Below, piece after piece: positions 705-6,870 of a DNA stretch of 64,000 nucleotides; within the stretch, counting starts at the first letter, position 1; each line of letters opens with the position of its first letter. The DNA comes from Saccharothrix saharensis (GTDB lineage: Bacteria > Actinomycetota > Actinomycetes > Mycobacteriales > Pseudonocardiaceae). The stretch spans positions 496,001 through 560,000 of the forward strand of contig NZ_VFPP01000001.1 in assembly GCF_006716745.1 (NCBI RefSeq), in the 5' to 3' direction. The notes under the pieces were generated by a model. The model had not been told where the DNA came from. It did no database searches and saw only the letters and a program-made list of their open reading frames with translations. Position numbers and translations under genes: made by a program.

Positions 705-1913
705 ATGCCCCCGCGGATCTCCGTCGTCATCCCCACCTACAACCGCGCCGAACTGCTCCGCCGCACCCTCGACAGCCTCACCGACCAAACCCTCCCACCC
801 GACGACTTCGACGTCGTCGTCGCCGACGACGGCTCACACGACCACACCGCCGACGTCGTCACCACCTACCAAAACCGCCTCCACCTGCACTACCACCACC
901 AACCCGACCACGGCCGACGCGTCGCACACGCCCGCAACGCCGGCGCACGCCTCACCACCGCACCCGTCCTCGCCTTCCTCGACAGCGGCACCCTCGCCGG
1001 CCCCGACTTCACCCGAGCCCACGCCGACGCCCACACCACCCACCCCGTCCTCAACCTCGGCTACGTCCACGGCTACCGACCCTGGGACCCCACACCCGGA
1101 CTCGCCGACGCCCTCACCACCCGAACCCCGAAGCAACTCCACCACGACTTCCAGCACCACCCTGGCTTCCGCGACATCCGCCACGAACCCCTCGCCGCCG
1201 TCGACTTCCAGCCCGACCGCCTCCCGTTCCCCTGGCTCTACGCCTGGGGCATGAACCTCTCCGTGCGCCGCACCGACTTCGACGCCGTCGGCGGCTTCGA
1301 CGAACGCTTCACCAGCTGGGGGACCGAAGACATCGAACTCGGCTACCGCCTGCGCCGCCACGGCCTCGCCACCCGCTTCGACCTCACCGCCTGGGCCGTC
1401 GAACCACCCCACGACCGGGACACGGGGGAGATGCTCGCCGGCGCCAAGCGCACCATGCGCCAGTTCCTCGACCAGACCCACGAACCCGACGTCGAACTCG
1501 TCTGGGCCGCCCTCGAACGCGACGACCCGCTCATCGCCGAAGCCGAACACCACGCCCTCACCGCGTGGACCGACCGGGCACGCACCCTCGACGTCCGACC
1601 GGAGATCGAACACCACGCCGCGGACGCCGGGGGACCGGTGTGCGTCATCGGCTGCGGCGACGACATCCCGGACCTGCCCGACGGCAGCGTGCTGATCGAC
1701 TTCGACGCCGACGTCCTGGAGAAGGCCGCGGGCCCGCACGAACGCCACCACGCGATCGGGCTGCAGGTCCCGCTGCCGGACAACGCGGTGCAGCGCGTCG
1801 TCGTCACGTCACGGCTCGCCGGCCTGTGGCGCACGTGGGGTGACGTCATCACCGCCGAGGCCGGGCGAGTGGGCAGGGAAGCGCCCAGGGTCGTCGCCGA
1901 ACCTCTTACTTAA
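705..1913 (+). CDS. Family 2 glycosyltransferase with extra C-terminal domain
   Basis: The protein (402 aa from the ATG at 705) opens with ISVVIPTYNRAELLRRTLD and DFDVVVADDGS, the nucleotide-sugar-binding start of GT-A family 2 enzymes. The acceptor half carries AWGMNLSVRR, GGFDERF and WGTEDIELGYRLRRHG, the Glyco_transf_7C-like signature. The frame is open upstream to 486, but that extension is low-complexity and lacks domain signal, so 705 was chosen. The last 130 residues are not part of a usual GT2 and read like a degenerate Rossmann/methyltransferase core (VCVIGCGDDIP, SVLIDFDADVLE, LPDNAVQRVVVTS). Sugar and acceptor are unknown. The WYL regulator is divergent. Confidence 0.75.
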   Translation: MPPRISVVIPTYNRAELLRRTLDSLTDQTLPPDDFDVVVADDGSHDHTADVVTTYQNRLHLHYHHQPDHGRRVAHARNAGARLTTAPVLAFLDSGTLAGPDFTRAHADAHTTHPVLNLGYVHGYRPWDPTPGLADALTTRTPKQLHHDFQHHPGFRDIRHEPLAAVDFQPDRLPFPWLYAWGMNLSVRRTDFDAVGGFDERFTSWGTEDIELGYRLRRHGLATRFDLTAWAVEPPHDRDTGEMLAGAKRTMRQFLDQTHEPDVELVWAALERDDPLIAEAEHHALTAWTDRARTLDVRPEIEHHAADAGGPVCVIGCGDDIPDLPDGSVLIDFDADVLEKAAGPHERHHAIGLQVPLPDNAVQRVVVTSRLAGLWRTWGDVITAEAGRVGREAPRVVAEPLT

Positions 1914-2701
1914 CATAATGTAGATTATCGGCGTTACGGACAGGCTGGTCGACAGAGGCCGGAACAGCGACGAGACCGGCCGATCAGCCACCGTGACGAC
2001 ACAACGTTCCACGCGACGCACGCACGCCTCGCCGGCGCGCCCGGCACGCCGCACGCGCCGCGCGACGCCCGTGAGACCGGCGGCCGGCGAGCGGCCCGGG
2101 GAAAGGCCCGAGTCGCTCGCCGAACCGGGAAGGCCGACGGCGGATGCGAGACGGCCACGCCGACACACCACCGTAGAAACGTCACAGTGACGGATCACGG
2201 GTGGTGTCCGAGGATGTCGGACCGGCGCGCACGCCGAGTTCCCGCCAGCGGTTGATCATCGAAGGCGGTCCGGCCCTCGCACCCGGCCGGACTCCGGGCT
2301 GTACCGGCTCGACCGGGTGCACGGGACGGTCGCGTGTGCGCACGGCGAACGATGTGCGTTCCAGGGGGTGGATCGGCCGGCGGCGGGACCGTTCGGGGGT
2401 GGCATCCCCCGGTCGGGGCCCGAACCCCTTCCGGATCGGCTATTCATGGATAATTGCCATTATCCATGAGTTGATCTTGATCTGGGGATCGAGGGCACGC
2501 GGTGCTCGACGCCCGGACATCGTCTCACCACCTTGGTCCCGGGCACCGCACAGGACCGCCGAGTGCCCGCGCGACCTGCCGTTTCCGGTCTCTGCTCGCG
2601 TCGGCCGCCCGGTCCGCGGCGTGCCGGTCCGGGCGGCCGCTCCCCCGGCCGGCGGCCGCGGTCGCGGCGGATTGTCGGTGGGGTGCGGTAGGAAGATCGA
2701 C
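1914..2701. other. 788-bp intergenic region before the recombinase
   Basis: No gene here could be supported: the open frames have no domain signal and no ribosome-binding site. An AT-rich patch (about 1905-1930, TTAACATAATGTAGATTATC) follows the glycosyltransferase stop and stands out in this GC-rich DNA as a possible promoter. A perfect AT-rich palindrome lies at 2444-2469 and is listed separately. Confidence 0.5.
2444..2469. repeat. Perfect 11-bp AT-rich inverted repeat, candidate recombinase or regulator site
   Basis: Arms TCATGGATAAT (2444-2454) and ATTATCCATGA (2459-2469) match perfectly around TGCC. Two 11-bp arms around a short centre are the usual layout of a tyrosine-recombinase core site, although those normally have a 6-8 bp centre. 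It lies 232 bp upstream of a recombinase gene. A regulator operator is the alternative. Confidence 0.4.
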
Positions 2702-3673
2702 ATGTTGGTGCTTGCCGCTCAGGAGTCGTTCTTCCTCGCTCGTCGGCCGCGGAAGGATTCGCCGCACACGACGGCGGCGTACCGGCGGGACCTGGCGGGT
2801 GTCACGGCGTTGTTGGCGGAGGTGACGGGCACTCCCCCGGATCGACTGGTGATGGCGGACCTGACGGCGCGCAACCTGCGTGCGGCGTTCGGGGTGTTCG
2901 CGGATTCGCACGCGAAGTCGTCGGTGCTGCGGGCGTGGTCGACGTGGAACCAGTTCCTGACGTTCTGCGTGGCGGAGGAGCTGGTGGCGGGCAACCCGAT
3001 GGGTGCGGTGGCGCGGCCGAAGACGCCGCCGCTGGTGCCGAAGCCGTTGCGGGGTGAGGACACGCCGGAGCGGTTGTTGGCGGCCGCGGCCGAGGGGGCA
3101 CGGCGGGGTCGTGATCCGTGGCCGGAGCGGGACGTGCTGGTGTTGGCGTTGGGGTTGGTGGCGGGGTTGCGGTCGGCGGAGATGAGGACGTTGACGTTGG
3201 CGTCGGTGGTGGGTCGGCCGGGTGAGCGTCGGTTGCACGTGGCGGGCAAGGGGAATCGGGATCGGTCGGTGCCGATCGAGCCGGCGATGGATCGGATCAT
3301 CGAGCAGTACCTGGTGTCGTGTCGGCGGCGTTTTCCGCAGGGCCGGTTCGATCGGGGGTCGGCGTTGTTGCGTGATCGGCACGGTGAGCCGATCGGGCGG
3401 GGTGGGTTGGAGTACTTGGTGCGGTCGTGCTTCCGGTGGGCGGGGTTGCACGACCGGGTGCCGTCGGGGGCGAACCTGCACGCGTTGCGGCACACGTTCG
3501 CGACGCGGTTGGCGGAGGACGGTGCGTCGGCGTCGGAGATCATGGCGTTGTTGGGGCACGCGTCGTTGGCGACGTCGCAGAACTACATCGAGGCGACGGC
3601 TCGTGAGCGGCGGGCGGCGGTGGCGGGCAATCGGACGTATGTGTCGTTGGCGCGGTTGCCGCATCGGGAGTAG
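2702..3673 (+). CDS. Tyrosine-type site-specific recombinase (XerC/D-like)
   Basis: 323 aa. The N-terminal half (SPHTTAAYRRDL through STWNQFLTFCV) is a SAM-like core-binding domain. The C-terminal half carries the catalytic set: Arg in LVAGLRSAEMRTL, Lys in VAGKGNRDR, His-x-x-Arg in LHALRHTFATRL, GHASLATSQNY with the nucleophilic Tyr. Length and motifs match Xer-type enzymes. The ATG at 2702 follows a GGTAGGAAG ribosome-binding site; the open frame upstream is non-coding in character. It stands alone between a glycosyltransferase and ku, so it may be a relic of an integrated element rather than the chromosome-dimer resolvase. Codons show the same TTG/GTG bias as ku-ligD. Confidence 0.85.
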   Translation: MLVLAAQESFFLARRPRKDSPHTTAAYRRDLAGVTALLAEVTGTPPDRLVMADLTARNLRAAFGVFADSHAKSSVLRAWSTWNQFLTFCVAEELVAGNPMGAVARPKTPPLVPKPLRGEDTPERLLAAAAEGARRGRDPWPERDVLVLALGLVAGLRSAEMRTLTLASVVGRPGERRLHVAGKGNRDRSVPIEPAMDRIIEQYLVSCRRRFPQGRFDRGSALLRDRHGEPIGRGGLEYLVRSCFRWAGLHDRVPSGANLHALRHTFATRLAEDGASASEIMALLGHASLATSQNYIEATARERRAAVAGNRTYVSLARLPHRE

Positions 3674-3768: not shown

Positions 3769-4653
3769 ATGAGGTCCGTGTGGCGTGGGGCGATCTCCTT
3801 CGGGTTGGTGACGATCGGTGTCCGGTTGTACACGGCCACGGAGGAGCACGACTTCCGGTTCCACCAGGTGCACCGGGAGGATGGTGGGCGCATCCGGTAC
3901 AAGCGGGTGTGCCAGGTGTGCGGCGAGGAGGTCGCTTACGCCGATATCGCGAAGGGTTACGAGCTGGACGACGGTCGGGTCGTGGTGTTGGACACCGAGG
4001 ATTTCGACAAGTTGCCGATCAACACCGATCACGCGATCGACGTGTTGGAGTTCGTGCCGGTGGACGAGGTCGATCCGATTTATTTTCAGAAGTCTTATTA
4101 TCTGGAGCCGGACAAGGCTGCGACGCGTCCTTATGTGTTGTTGCGGACGGCGTTGGAGCGCAGTGGGCAGTTGGCGGTGGTGAAGATCACGATTCGTCAG
4201 CGGGAGACGTTGGCGATGTTGCGGGCGCGTGATGACGTGTTGGTGATGCACACGATGTTGTGGCCGGATGAGGTGCGGAAGCCGGATTTCGAGTTCTTGG
4301 GTGGTGAGGTGGAGGTTCGGCCGCAGGAGTTGAAGATGGCGTCGTCGTTGGTGGACAGCATGGCGGGGTCGTTCGATCCGGCTGATTTCACCGATGACTA
4401 CACCGAGGCGATGCAGAAGGTGATCGAGGCGAAGGCGGAGGGTGCGGAGTTGCCGGAGCGGCCGGAGGCCGAGGAGTCCGGTGAGGTGATCGATCTGATG
4501 ACGGCGTTGGAGCGGAGTGTGGAGCAGGCGAAGTCGGCGCGGGGTGGGAAGTCGGCGGGGCGCAAGCCCGCGGCGAAGAAGGCGCCGGCGGCGAAGGGGT
4601 CGGCGGGTGCGGAGCGGAAGGCGCCGGCGAAGAAGAAGGCGAAGCCGGCCTGA
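3769..4653 (+). CDS. ku: Non-homologous end joining protein Ku
   Basis: 294 aa starting MRSVWRGAISFGLVTIGVRLYTATEEHDFRFHQ, the conserved start of bacterial Ku. CQVCGEEVAYADIAKGYEL and DYTEAMQKVIEAKAEG are further hallmarks of the Ku core, the homodimeric ring that loads on double-strand ends and recruits LigD. The last 35 residues are a Lys/Ala tail (PAKKAPAAKG, PAKKKAKPA), typical of actinobacterial Ku and thought to contact DNA. Ligase and polymerase genes follow at once on the same strand, giving a ku-ligD operon. Nothing indicates damage in this gene. Confidence 0.95.
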   Translation: MRSVWRGAISFGLVTIGVRLYTATEEHDFRFHQVHREDGGRIRYKRVCQVCGEEVAYADIAKGYELDDGRVVVLDTEDFDKLPINTDHAIDVLEFVPVDEVDPIYFQKSYYLEPDKAATRPYVLLRTALERSGQLAVVKITIRQRETLAMLRARDDVLVMHTMLWPDEVRKPDFEFLGGEVEVRPQELKMASSLVDSMAGSFDPADFTDDYTEAMQKVIEAKAEGAELPERPEAEESGEVIDLMTALERSVEQAKSARGGKSAGRKPAAKKAPAAKGSAGAERKAPAKKKAKPA

Positions 4654-4669
4654 GGGCGTGGCGGTGGGG

Positions 4670-6007
4670 ATGGGCGGGGATCTTTCGGAGTACCGGCGGA
4701 AGCGGGATGCGGGGCGGACGCCGGAGCCGGTGCCGGGTGAGGGGGTGGTGTTGCCGCGTGGTGGTGATGACACGTTCGTGATCCAGGAGCACCACGCGTC
4801 GCGGTTGCACTGGGATGTGCGGTTGGAGCGGGGTGGGGTGTTGGTGTCGTGGGCGGTGCCGAAGGGGTTGCCGTCGGAGCCGGGGACGATCCGGTTGGCG
4901 GTGCGCACGGAGGATCACCCGTTGGAGTACGCGTCGTTTTCGGGGGTGATTCCGAAGGGTGAGTACGGGGCGGGGCGGATGGTGATCTGGGATCAGGGTC
5001 GGTACGAGACGGTGAAGTGGTCCGACCGCGAGGTGGACGTGGTGTTGCACGGTGCGCGGGTGGAGGGTGAGTTCGTGTTCTTCCGCCGTGGTGCGGCTGG
5101 TGGTGCGGAGGGGGCGGGCGGGGACTGGATGGTGCGGCGGCGGCACGAGGCGGTGCGGGCGGGTTGGGTGTCGTTGCCGGAGTCGGTCTCCCCCATGTTG
5201 GCGACGGCGGCGGTGGAGTTGCCGGGGCCCGCGTCGGAGTGGGCGTTCGAGTTCAAGTGGGACGGGGTGCGGGCGGTGGCGCGGGTGGAGGGTGGGCGGG
5301 TGCGGTTGACGAGCCGGTTGGGCAAAGACGTGACGGGGACGTATCCGGAGTTGCAGGGGTTGGGTGCGCAGTTGGGTGCGACGGAGGTGTTGTTGGACGG
5401 GGAGATCGTGGCGTTGGAGGGTGGTCGGCCGAGTTTCGGTGCGTTGCAGGAGCGGATGCACGCGTCGGCGGCGCAGGCGCGGCGGTTGGTGGGGCGGGTG
5501 CCGGTGACGTTCCTGGTGTTCGACGTGTTGCACCTGGACGGCTCCCCCACGGTGGGGTTGCCGTATGCGCGGCGGCGGGAGTTGTTGGAGGGGTTGGGGG
5601 TGCGGGGGGCTCATTGGTTGACGCCGAAGGCGTTCCCGGGTGCGGGTGCGGCGGTGTTGGCGGCGAGTCGGGAGCAGGGGTTGGAGGGGGTGGTGGCGAA
5701 GCGGCTGGACTCGCGGTATGTGCCGGGTCGGCGGTCGCCGCACTGGGTGAAGGTGACGTCGGTGGAGACGCAGGAGGTGGTGGTCGGGGGGTGGCGGCCG
5801 GGTGGGGGCAAGCGTGCGGGGCTGGTGGGGTCGTTGTTGTTGGGCATCCCGGACGGTGGGGGTGGGTTGGTGTTCGCGGGGTCGGTGGGGACGGGGTTCG
5901 ACCGGGCGGTTCCCGACGTGGCGGGGGTTGCGGCCGGATCGGGTGTCCGGGGAGGTGCGGCGTGGTGGCGGCTGACGCGGTGGTGGCGGTGGAGGGTCGT
6001 CGGGTGA
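4670..6007 (+). CDS. ligD: LigD-type ATP-dependent DNA ligase (PE-LIG) with missing C-terminal OB-fold segment
   Basis: 445 aa as read. Residues 1-150 are the 3'-phosphoesterase domain (QEHHASRLHWDVRLERGG, GVIPKGEYGAG). From residue 190 comes the adenylation domain with the lysine motif EFKWDGVRA, then LLDGEIVAL, LVFDVLHLDG and EGVVAKRLDSRY. After VGTGFDRA the family should continue through most of the OB fold, but this frame drifts into low-complexity sequence. The typical C-terminal end (FPTWRGLRPDRVSGEVRR) sits in another frame at 5907-5975. An ancestral gene ending at the TGA 5973-5975 has therefore probably lost about 150-180 nt with a frame change. Start ATG 4670; in-frame GTG codons at 4658 and 4664 are alternatives. 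Confidence 0.8.
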   Translation: MGGDLSEYRRKRDAGRTPEPVPGEGVVLPRGGDDTFVIQEHHASRLHWDVRLERGGVLVSWAVPKGLPSEPGTIRLAVRTEDHPLEYASFSGVIPKGEYGAGRMVIWDQGRYETVKWSDREVDVVLHGARVEGEFVFFRRGAAGGAEGAGGDWMVRRRHEAVRAGWVSLPESVSPMLATAAVELPGPASEWAFEFKWDGVRAVARVEGGRVRLTSRLGKDVTGTYPELQGLGAQLGATEVLLDGEIVALEGGRPSFGALQERMHASAAQARRLVGRVPVTFLVFDVLHLDGSPTVGLPYARRRELLEGLGVRGAHWLTPKAFPGAGAAVLAASREQGLEGVVAKRLDSRYVPGRRSPHWVKVTSVETQEVVVGGWRPGGGKRAGLVGSLLLGIPDGGGGLVFAGSVGTGFDRAVPDVAGVAAGSGVRGGAAWWRLTRWWRWRVVG

Positions 6008-6870
6008 AGCTGACGAACCTGGACAAGGTGCTGTACCCGGAGGTGGGGTTCACCAAGGCGGAGGTGATCGATTACTACTCGCGGATCGCGCCGGTGTTGT
6101 TGCCGCACGTGGCGGGTCGGCCGTTGACGGTGCGCCGGTATCCGAACGGGGTGGAGGGGAAGTCGTTCTTCGAGAAGAACGCGCCGGCGCACGCGCCGGA
6201 GTGGGTGCGGACGGTGCGGGTGGAGACGCCGGGGTCGTCGCGGGGTGCGGAGTACGCGGACTTCGTGGTGGTGGAGGATTTGGCGACGTTGGTGTGGGTG
6301 GCGAACCTGGCGGCGTTGGAGTTGCACGTGCCGCAGTGGGTGGTGGGTGCGCGGGGTGGGCGGCGCTCCCCCGACCTGGTGGTGTTCGACCTGGATCCGG
6401 GTGAGCCGGCGACGGTGGTGGAGTGTTGTCGGGTGGCGTGCCGGGTGCGGGAGGTGGTGGAGGCGGACGGGTTGGTGCCGGTGGTGAAGACGTCGGGGTC
6501 GAAGGGGTTGCAGGTGTACGCGGCGGTGTCGGTGTCGTCGCCGGAGCGGACGTCGGAGTACGCGCGGGGTGTGGCGCAGCGGTTGGCGCGGGAGTGGCCG
6601 GAGGAGGTGGTGTGGCGGATGGCGAAGGCGCAGCGGACGGGGAAGGTGTTGATCGACTGGTCGCAGAACAACCCGGCGAAGACGACGGTGGCGCCGTACT
6701 CGTTGCGTGCTCGTGGGCGGCCTTCGGTGTCGACGCCGGTGTCGTGGGCGGAGGTGGAGGCGTGTCGGGTGGTGGAGGACCTGGTGTTCTTGGCTGACGA
6801 GGTGCGGGAGCGGGTGGCTGCGGACGGTGATCTGTTCGCGGTGGGAAAGCCGTCGCCGTTGCCGCGGTGA
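5962..6870 (+). CDS. LigD polymerase domain protein (NHEJ primase-polymerase)
   Basis: 302 aa. VKLTNLDKVLYPEVGFTKAE marks the start of the LigD POL domain. LVVFDLDPGE (metal-binding Asp pair), VVKTSGSKGLQVYAA and LIDWSQNNPAKTTVAPYSLR follow. The fold is archaeo-eukaryotic-primase-like and fills gaps at joined ends, preferring ribonucleotides. GGGGAGG at 5949-5955 lies 6 nt before GTG 5962 (next codon GTG 5965), so it is a separate, translationally coupled gene. Its start overlaps the ancestral stop of the ligase gene at 5973-5975. The order Ku, PE-LIG, POL spreads over three genes what other bacteria fuse into one LigD. Confidence 0.9.
   Translation: MVAADAVVAVEGRRVKLTNLDKVLYPEVGFTKAEVIDYYSRIAPVLLPHVAGRPLTVRRYPNGVEGKSFFEKNAPAHAPEWVRTVRVETPGSSRGAEYADFVVVEDLATLVWVANLAALELHVPQWVVGARGGRRSPDLVVFDLDPGEPATVVECCRVACRVREVVEADGLVPVVKTSGSKGLQVYAAVSVSSPERTSEYARGVAQRLAREWPEEVVWRMAKAQRTGKVLIDWSQNNPAKTTVAPYSLRARGRPSVSTPVSWAEVEACRVVEDLVFLADEVRERVAADGDLFAVGKPSPLPR

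Follow-up and report, generated by a model that had tools for sequence, protein, structure and literature searches.

Excerpts of PMC3025954 and PMC5357621 describe chromosomes with a single dif site and either one Xer protein or two. In the former, dif was predicted in 66 of 66 actinobacterial single chromosomes, and an excerpt of PMC4210621 places a putative dif of Kutzneria albida opposite oriC. In the XerH/difH and XerS/difSL systems, one Xer recombinase is paired with a nearly symmetric site that often adjoins its gene (PMC5357621, excerpt). For Legionellales, an excerpt of PMC9765430 describes chromosome dimer resolution by XerL/dif where no XerCD had been identified, and reports that the XerL copy of Coxiella is plasmid-encoded. 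The classes of tyrosine recombinases and the recombinases of plasmids are treated in PMC8138268 and PMC3414803, respectively, both seen as excerpts.

A stretch of 64,000 nucleotides from Saccharothrix saharensis (assembly GCF_006716745.1, contig NZ_VFPP01000001.1, positions 496,001 to 560,000), called the window from here on, was investigated. The original prediction described a perfect palindrome at 2444-2469, 232 bp ahead of an orphan Xer-like recombinase, and proposed that it was either the core site of the recombinase or an operator controlling it. The palindrome was recovered as TCATGGATAAT-TGCC-ATTATCCATGA, with two 11-bp arms free of mismatches, and the distance of 232 bp from its end to the ATG at 2702 was likewise correct. 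A canonical dif located about 535 bp upstream, centre to centre, had been missed. The features needed in what follows are:

1908..1935, minus strand: canonical actinobacterial dif, AACGCCGATAA-TCTACA-TTATGTTAAGT, with its inner 21 bp unmatched elsewhere in the genome when up to 3 mismatches are allowed
2180..2192, no strand assigned: conserved palindrome CGTCAC-A-GTGACG, between dif and the symmetric site
2443..2470, no strand assigned: symmetric dif-like site, TTCATGGATAA + 6-bp centre TTGCCA + TTATCCATGAG, with arms of 11 bp, containing the palindrome at 2444-2469
2702..3673, plus strand: third Xer-type tyrosine recombinase of 323 aa, called from Pfam Phage_integrase, NCBIfam, a tree and an alignment

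Read in Xer register, the palindrome becomes a 28-bp site of 11 + 6 + 11 bp, and the ATAA-N6-TTAT around its centre is the same as in dif. It thus shares with XerCD/dif the length and layout of the site, the letters beside the centre and the terminus (dnaA lies at 4,850,020, and dif and the palindrome are ~110 kb off the point opposite it). The two differ in their arms, which are alike in the symmetric site and different from each other in dif. The site is also single: no partner for its inner 22 bp, ATGGATAATNNNNATTATCCAT, was found elsewhere when up to 3 mismatches were allowed across the 8,924,967-bp genome. Two 11-bp arms, a 6-bp centre, a single copy and a position at the terminus together make up the layout of a dif-type crossover site. 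As a bare inverted repeat the palindrome is only moderately unusual; the window holds six distinct perfect inverted repeats (arms of at least 11, spacers of 0-8) against 0.8 expected from six first-order Markov simulations. What raises it above chance is its conservation, that is, the N6-spaced symmetric site at 79 of 80 recombinase loci and the comparison of the motif with a reversed control, both given below.

The surroundings held two further observations. The dif site overlaps the stop codon of a glycosyltransferase gene, 5' of which another palindrome, AAGTGCTCA-N5-TGAGCACTT at 507-529 of the window, is possibly a candidate operator; several relatives have similar ones at comparable positions. 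On the 3' side of the recombinase, a Ku gene and what we take from its sequence to be a LigD-ligase-like frame lie within 3769-6870.

The recombinase was recognized as an Xer-type tyrosine recombinase by its PF00589 match (E 1.2e-20), with the R, K, HxxR, H and Y residues all present. R157, K183, H260, R263, H286 and Y295, presumably the catalytic set of the family, were invariant across 26 aligned rows. The best NCBIfam models were those of XerC (151.6 bits, cut-off 335.15) and XerD (120.6 bits, cut-off 329.6), a further likeness to XerCD, with scores far under both cut-offs. A tree of 78 proteins, made up of third-type, plasmid and XerC/XerD rows alone without other integrases, placed 52 third-type rows apart from 26 XerC/XerD rows with support of 100/100. 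The third-type rows comprised 43 from the window and genome loci (the window, 16 of the 80 named loci and 26 of 30 further third-type loci) and nine from plasmids (nine of 10 proteins, one being identical). The XerC/XerD rows were 26 of the 30 loci from the XerC/XerD search, of which the remaining four were third-type. The recombinase is accordingly not an orthologue of XerC or XerD, scoring far below both and falling in its own clade.

The same genome also encodes a XerD (351.2 bits, above the cut-off) and a XerC-like protein of 303.5 bits, under the strict XerC cut-off of 335.15, which none of the 14 genomes searched passed. Because the genome's own XerC-like protein falls under that cut-off, the tree is the firmer test of XerC/XerD membership. 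Two further genes of XerC/XerD level were present in 12 of the 14 genomes, S. saharensis among them, and one in G437 and G494. The term orphan, used in the original prediction, therefore holds for this protein only in the sense that it is neither XerC nor XerD.

A single recombinase of Xer type with a symmetric site recalls XerH/difH of Helicobacter and Campylobacter and XerS/difSL of streptococci and lactococci. In those systems the single recombinase replaces XerCD, whereas S. saharensis has XerC, XerD and dif as well, so that the locus is not a single-recombinase system of the XerH, XerS or XerL type. The likeness to XerL/dif, a single recombinase with a site at the terminus, ends at the same point, since the protein described here accompanies XerCD. 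Sequence similarity to XerH is low (E 3.8e-6). The AlphaFold model of the recombinase was of medium confidence (mean pLDDT 78.5, pTM 0.58, poor at 286-306), and its fold matches, at E 1e-6 to 1e-4, had low TM-scores (about 0.35-0.5); they included XerA, XerD, XerH on palindromic difH, lambda integrase and Cre.

Conservation of the site was investigated at 80 recombinase loci from Saccharothrix, Lentzea, Actinosynnema, Umezawaea, Amycolatopsis, Kutzneria, Kribbella and others, using a search that required TAA and TTA alone. The pattern TGSATAA-N6-TTATSCA was found 5' of the gene at 79 of the 80 loci, together with dif wherever the contig reaches that far; three of these had one extra, chance TAA-N6-TTA. 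In the remaining locus, from Actinoalloteichus (L081), neither the site nor dif was found within the stretch fetched around the recombinase. In genome G219, whose recombinase (L113) is the same as that of L081, the site and dif lie together, 531 kb from the gene.

The arms were mirrored and varied together, reading GGATAA/TTATCC in Saccharothrix and GCATAA/TTATGC in Amycolatopsis, with hybrid sites in Lentzea in which one arm is irregular. Across 114 distinct sites, left and right arms had matching letters at the G/C position in 89% of cases, where 52% would be expected; the six central columns were variable (1.35-1.90 bits). In this analysis, as in the order and class surveys below, the inner arm letters were preset, leaving arm position 5 (G/C), the outer positions and the centre free to vary. 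Like arms around a free, asymmetric centre would suit a crossover site, and free spacers can also occur in operators. In several Amycolatopsis (L075, L085, L074, L080, L082, L084 and L076), the arms of the palindrome were lengthened to 18-22 bp; these extended arms vary by species, yet remain matched. A protelomerase-type end was set aside, since the window's site lacks a palindromic centre, which the G157 site has.

Gene and site were then compared across genomes. In an order survey of 298 genomes, with the recombinase called at E ≤ 1e-40, the motif was present in 82 of 82 recombinase genomes and in 5 of 216 without a recombinase match (raw counts that ignore kinship). The totals of 82 and 87 genomes, respectively, spanned the same 17 of 76 genera. 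In three of the five exceptions (G084, G212 and G268) the contig breaks off inside the start of the recombinase gene; no recombinase was found in the other two, G166 and G183. A class survey of 345 genomes, partly overlapping the order set, gave 27 with the recombinase and 30 with the motif; the exact motif occurred in 26 of the 27 and in 4 of 318 others (kinship again ignored). The 27th, G494, has the motif with one letter changed, as seen in a looser look at that locus alone. The four motif-bearing genomes without a recombinase match were G166, G183, G332 (a 4.9-kb contig) and G596. The reversed control pattern occurred in none of the 298 order genomes and in one of the 345 class genomes. 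The original prediction had named the absence of the site from relatives that keep the recombinase as the result that would count against it; these two surveys show the opposite, apart from the one altered letter.

Gene and site were also missing together, in 22 of 54 genomes of family f1, 7 of 53 of f15 and 32 of 32 of f33 (f15, f31 and f33 are presumably Micromonosporaceae, Streptosporangiaceae and Streptomycetaceae, a guess on our part). Genera g28 and g143 each included one genome with both and one with neither. These joint absences bear on the idea that the site binds an unrelated terminus protein and that its co-occurrence with the recombinase is a chance of ancestry. That idea would account for a site that follows dif more tightly than it follows the gene, as described next; the absence of both within families (f1, f15) and within genera (g28, g143), and the recurrence of the gene-site pair on plasmids, make it extremely unlikely.

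Distances were measured at 77 of the 80 named loci, leaving out L014 (the second scaffold of one assembly), L072 (the contig stops before dif) and L081 (without site and dif). The site-dif distance had a median of 447 bp and a log-sd of 0.42, whereas the site-gene distance ranged from 58 bp to 4.6 kb with a log-sd of 1.14. Moreover, gene and site were apart in 11 genomes, each of which had one exact site, 335-610 bp from dif. The separation was 531 kb in G219, 1.08 Mb in G104, 0.65 Mb in G196, 0.83 Mb in G211, 0.14 Mb in G111 and 1.57 Mb in G239, and in G062, G180, G200, G208 and G231 the two were on separate contigs. These observations speak against the second half of the original prediction, the operator, whether the protein that would occupy it to control transcription of the gene is the recombinase itself or a different regulator. 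A position 58-110 bp 5' of the start codon in many genomes and a dyad symmetry that fits a dimeric regulator speak for such an operator. A site kept at the gene's promoter is not what the 11 genomes have: their only copy stays by dif although the gene is 0.14-1.6 Mb away or located on a different contig, so that it is not simply an operator, and at the 77 loci its distance to dif was the less variable one. We regard the operator as very unlikely to be the primary role of the site; where it lies close to the gene, it may have a second use of this kind. A terminator hairpin was set aside, since the site accompanies dif and not gene ends.

In the wider set, dif was present in the fetched stretch for 139 of 160 sites, at a median of 474 bp (5-95%, 277-1004). 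Four sites lay more than 1.2 kb from dif (L061 at 4.2 kb, L127 at 7.2 kb, L140 and L174). The 21 sites without dif in the stretch included six at f31 and other loci in which dif is absent or altered, sites on plasmid contigs or at the ends of contigs, the G157 site and an extra G150 site. The last two are exceptions to the linkage to dif. Because the order and strand of dif and site vary among families, the closeness itself seems to be kept.

That constant closeness, with order and strand varying, could also be expected if the recombinase at the site were an accessory or architectural factor for XerCD at dif, without recombination of its own. The putative catalytic residues are invariant, however, the centre is asymmetric and free to vary, and the same pairing occurs on plasmids, where a canonical dif was not found in most stretches (contig G130:C1 has a dif-like sequence). 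We consider such a purely accessory role unlikely.

Besides dif and the site, the main conserved block of the interval between them at 19 loci was CGTCAC-n-GTGACG; the other was a short TCCCCCG, at 2405-2411 in the window. The stretches, 1.86 Mb in all, contain 66 copies of CGTCAC-n-GTGACG, 62 of them within 1 kb of dif or the site. It was present in only 59 of 158 site-bearing loci (L014 left out), and of 20 genomes without a recombinase match 14 had it too, at 89-773 bp from dif; the palindrome was seen at L463-L482 and many further loci. It was therefore rejected as a part of the recombinase system, and its presence near dif even without the recombinase assigns it to the dif neighbourhood. 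A search of the open-access literature for MatP-like sites gave nothing to the point among the matches listed.

Family f31 departed from this arrangement. Canonical dif was not found in the stretches of L157-L160, L180 and L182 (genera g120, g166, g179 and g190), which have a different symmetric N6 site instead, ATACC(A/G)GACAGAA-N6-TTCTGTCYGGTAT, with variants. The two f31 genomes searched for Xer genes, G437 and G494, had one gene of XerC/XerD level, not two. Perhaps a homotypic pair has replaced dif and one Xer protein in these genomes.

Relatives of the recombinase were identified by protein search on 58 of 72,556 plasmids, from Mycobacterium (32), Rhodococcus (18), Mycolicibacterium (6), Prescottella (1) and Dietzia (1), with 35-40% identity among the 25 matches listed of the 58. 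Ten of the 58 records were examined for a site, and a symmetric N6-spaced one was found 91-1502 bp 5' of the match in nine; it was not found in L456. The nine include two members of a single plasmid family, L453 and L462. The full 14 of 14 letters were matched by five of the sites, 13 by two, 12 by one and 11 by one (L457), which is symmetric at 12 of 13 positions. For matches of 12 letters or more, 0.08 are expected by chance per 10 plasmid loci. Cre/loxP is a plasmid multimer-resolution recombinase system, and the centre of loxP is longer. The mycobacterial and rhodococcal relatives resemble it in having a recombinase near a symmetric site on large plasmids, whereas the system of the window is chromosomal and tied to dif.

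Plasmid-size contigs were also seen among the genomes. G207:C2, G007:C2 and G130:C1 (~190-220 kb; L104, L121, L122, L124, L125 and L126) carry the recombinase and two symmetric sites each, with differing 6-bp centres, so that the one partner open to each site would be its own copy in a dimer. G007:C2 and G207:C2 agree with two listed plasmids in gene position, and G130:C1 additionally has the dif-like sequence mentioned above. At L123 (G007:C1), a chromosomal symmetric site adjoins a match that covers only some 200 N-terminal residues of the recombinase and is probably a remnant. At L140 (G168:C55), a 176-kb contig carries an additional pair of dif and symmetric site, separated by 1.3 kb; megablast against plasmids found none similar to it.

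Plasmid relatives would also be expected if the site were the attachment site or scar of an element integrating near dif, such as an IMEX or a plasmid with its recombinase. G130 has two symmetric sites near dif, 6.2 kb apart, which also speaks for such an element. Their centres differ (CAACGG and CGAAGA), unlike those at the two ends of one crossover, and nearly all site-bearing chromosomes have one site. Two sites with the same centre would mark an element integrated at dif; a single site was found here and in most genomes. Gene and site are, moreover, widespread across several families, and an integration scar is in our judgement highly improbable.

The reading that we prefer is that the palindrome is probably the core crossover site of a third Xer protein, in a homotypic dif-like dimer-resolution system alongside XerCD/dif. 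As a putative core site, the first alternative of the original prediction, it is well supported by comparison of sequences, through the 11 + 6 + 11 layout, the near-exact co-occurrence with the gene and the like sites on plasmids. Two monomers of one recombinase would bind the two 11-bp arms, since these are alike. Two sites, as in a chromosome dimer, would synapse as a tetramer; with one site per chromosome, such a pair would be available only in dimers or sister copies. Strand exchange would take place across the 6-bp centre, whose asymmetry would set the direction, and one crossover would resolve the dimer. The site could be served in trans by a recombinase gene located elsewhere. In outline, the scheme would follow that of XerH/difH and XerS/difSL. 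Counting against it are the irregular arm in Lentzea, the sites without dif in the stretch or far from it, the genomes G166, G183, G332 and G596 with the motif but no recombinase match, and the plasmid locus L456 without a site. Binding, cleavage and dimer resolution, along with any FtsK or cell-division role, are inferred.

With XerC, XerD and dif all present, there is no obvious need for a second resolution system. Such a system may serve as a back-up, act under other circumstances (many-genome hyphae, sporulation septa) or aid XerCD at dif. More tentatively, many XerCD/dif actinomycetes could be keeping a second, independent system in tandem at the same terminus. It would be akin to the one on large mycobacterial and rhodococcal plasmids and would serve a separate purpose in the cell cycle, for instance in many-genome hyphae or at sporulation septa. 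The whole is a real possibility that we hold with some doubt. If true, one terminus would have two non-exchangeable crossover lanes.

No description of a third Xer protein, or of a second site beside dif, in actinomycetes was found in open-access titles and the starts of abstracts, a scope outside which most subscription journals lie. No open-access literature joining Micromonospora, XerD and 'dif site' was found either. On our best reading, the novelty would be that a homotypic dif-like Xer system accompanies XerCD/dif and does not replace it. More than 100 actinomycete genomes in the two surveys have the third Xer-type gene and a second dif-like site, usually within ~0.5 kb of dif. Were it to recombine as proposed, the symmetric site, with its free centre, would itself be a candidate recombinase tool. 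These results suggest that two chromosome-resolution systems coexist in many filamentous soil bacteria. If the system does recombine in this way, three questions would become testable: why two systems share a terminus, whether there is movement of Xer systems between plasmids and chromosomes, and how dimers are resolved in bacteria whose cells contain many genome copies.
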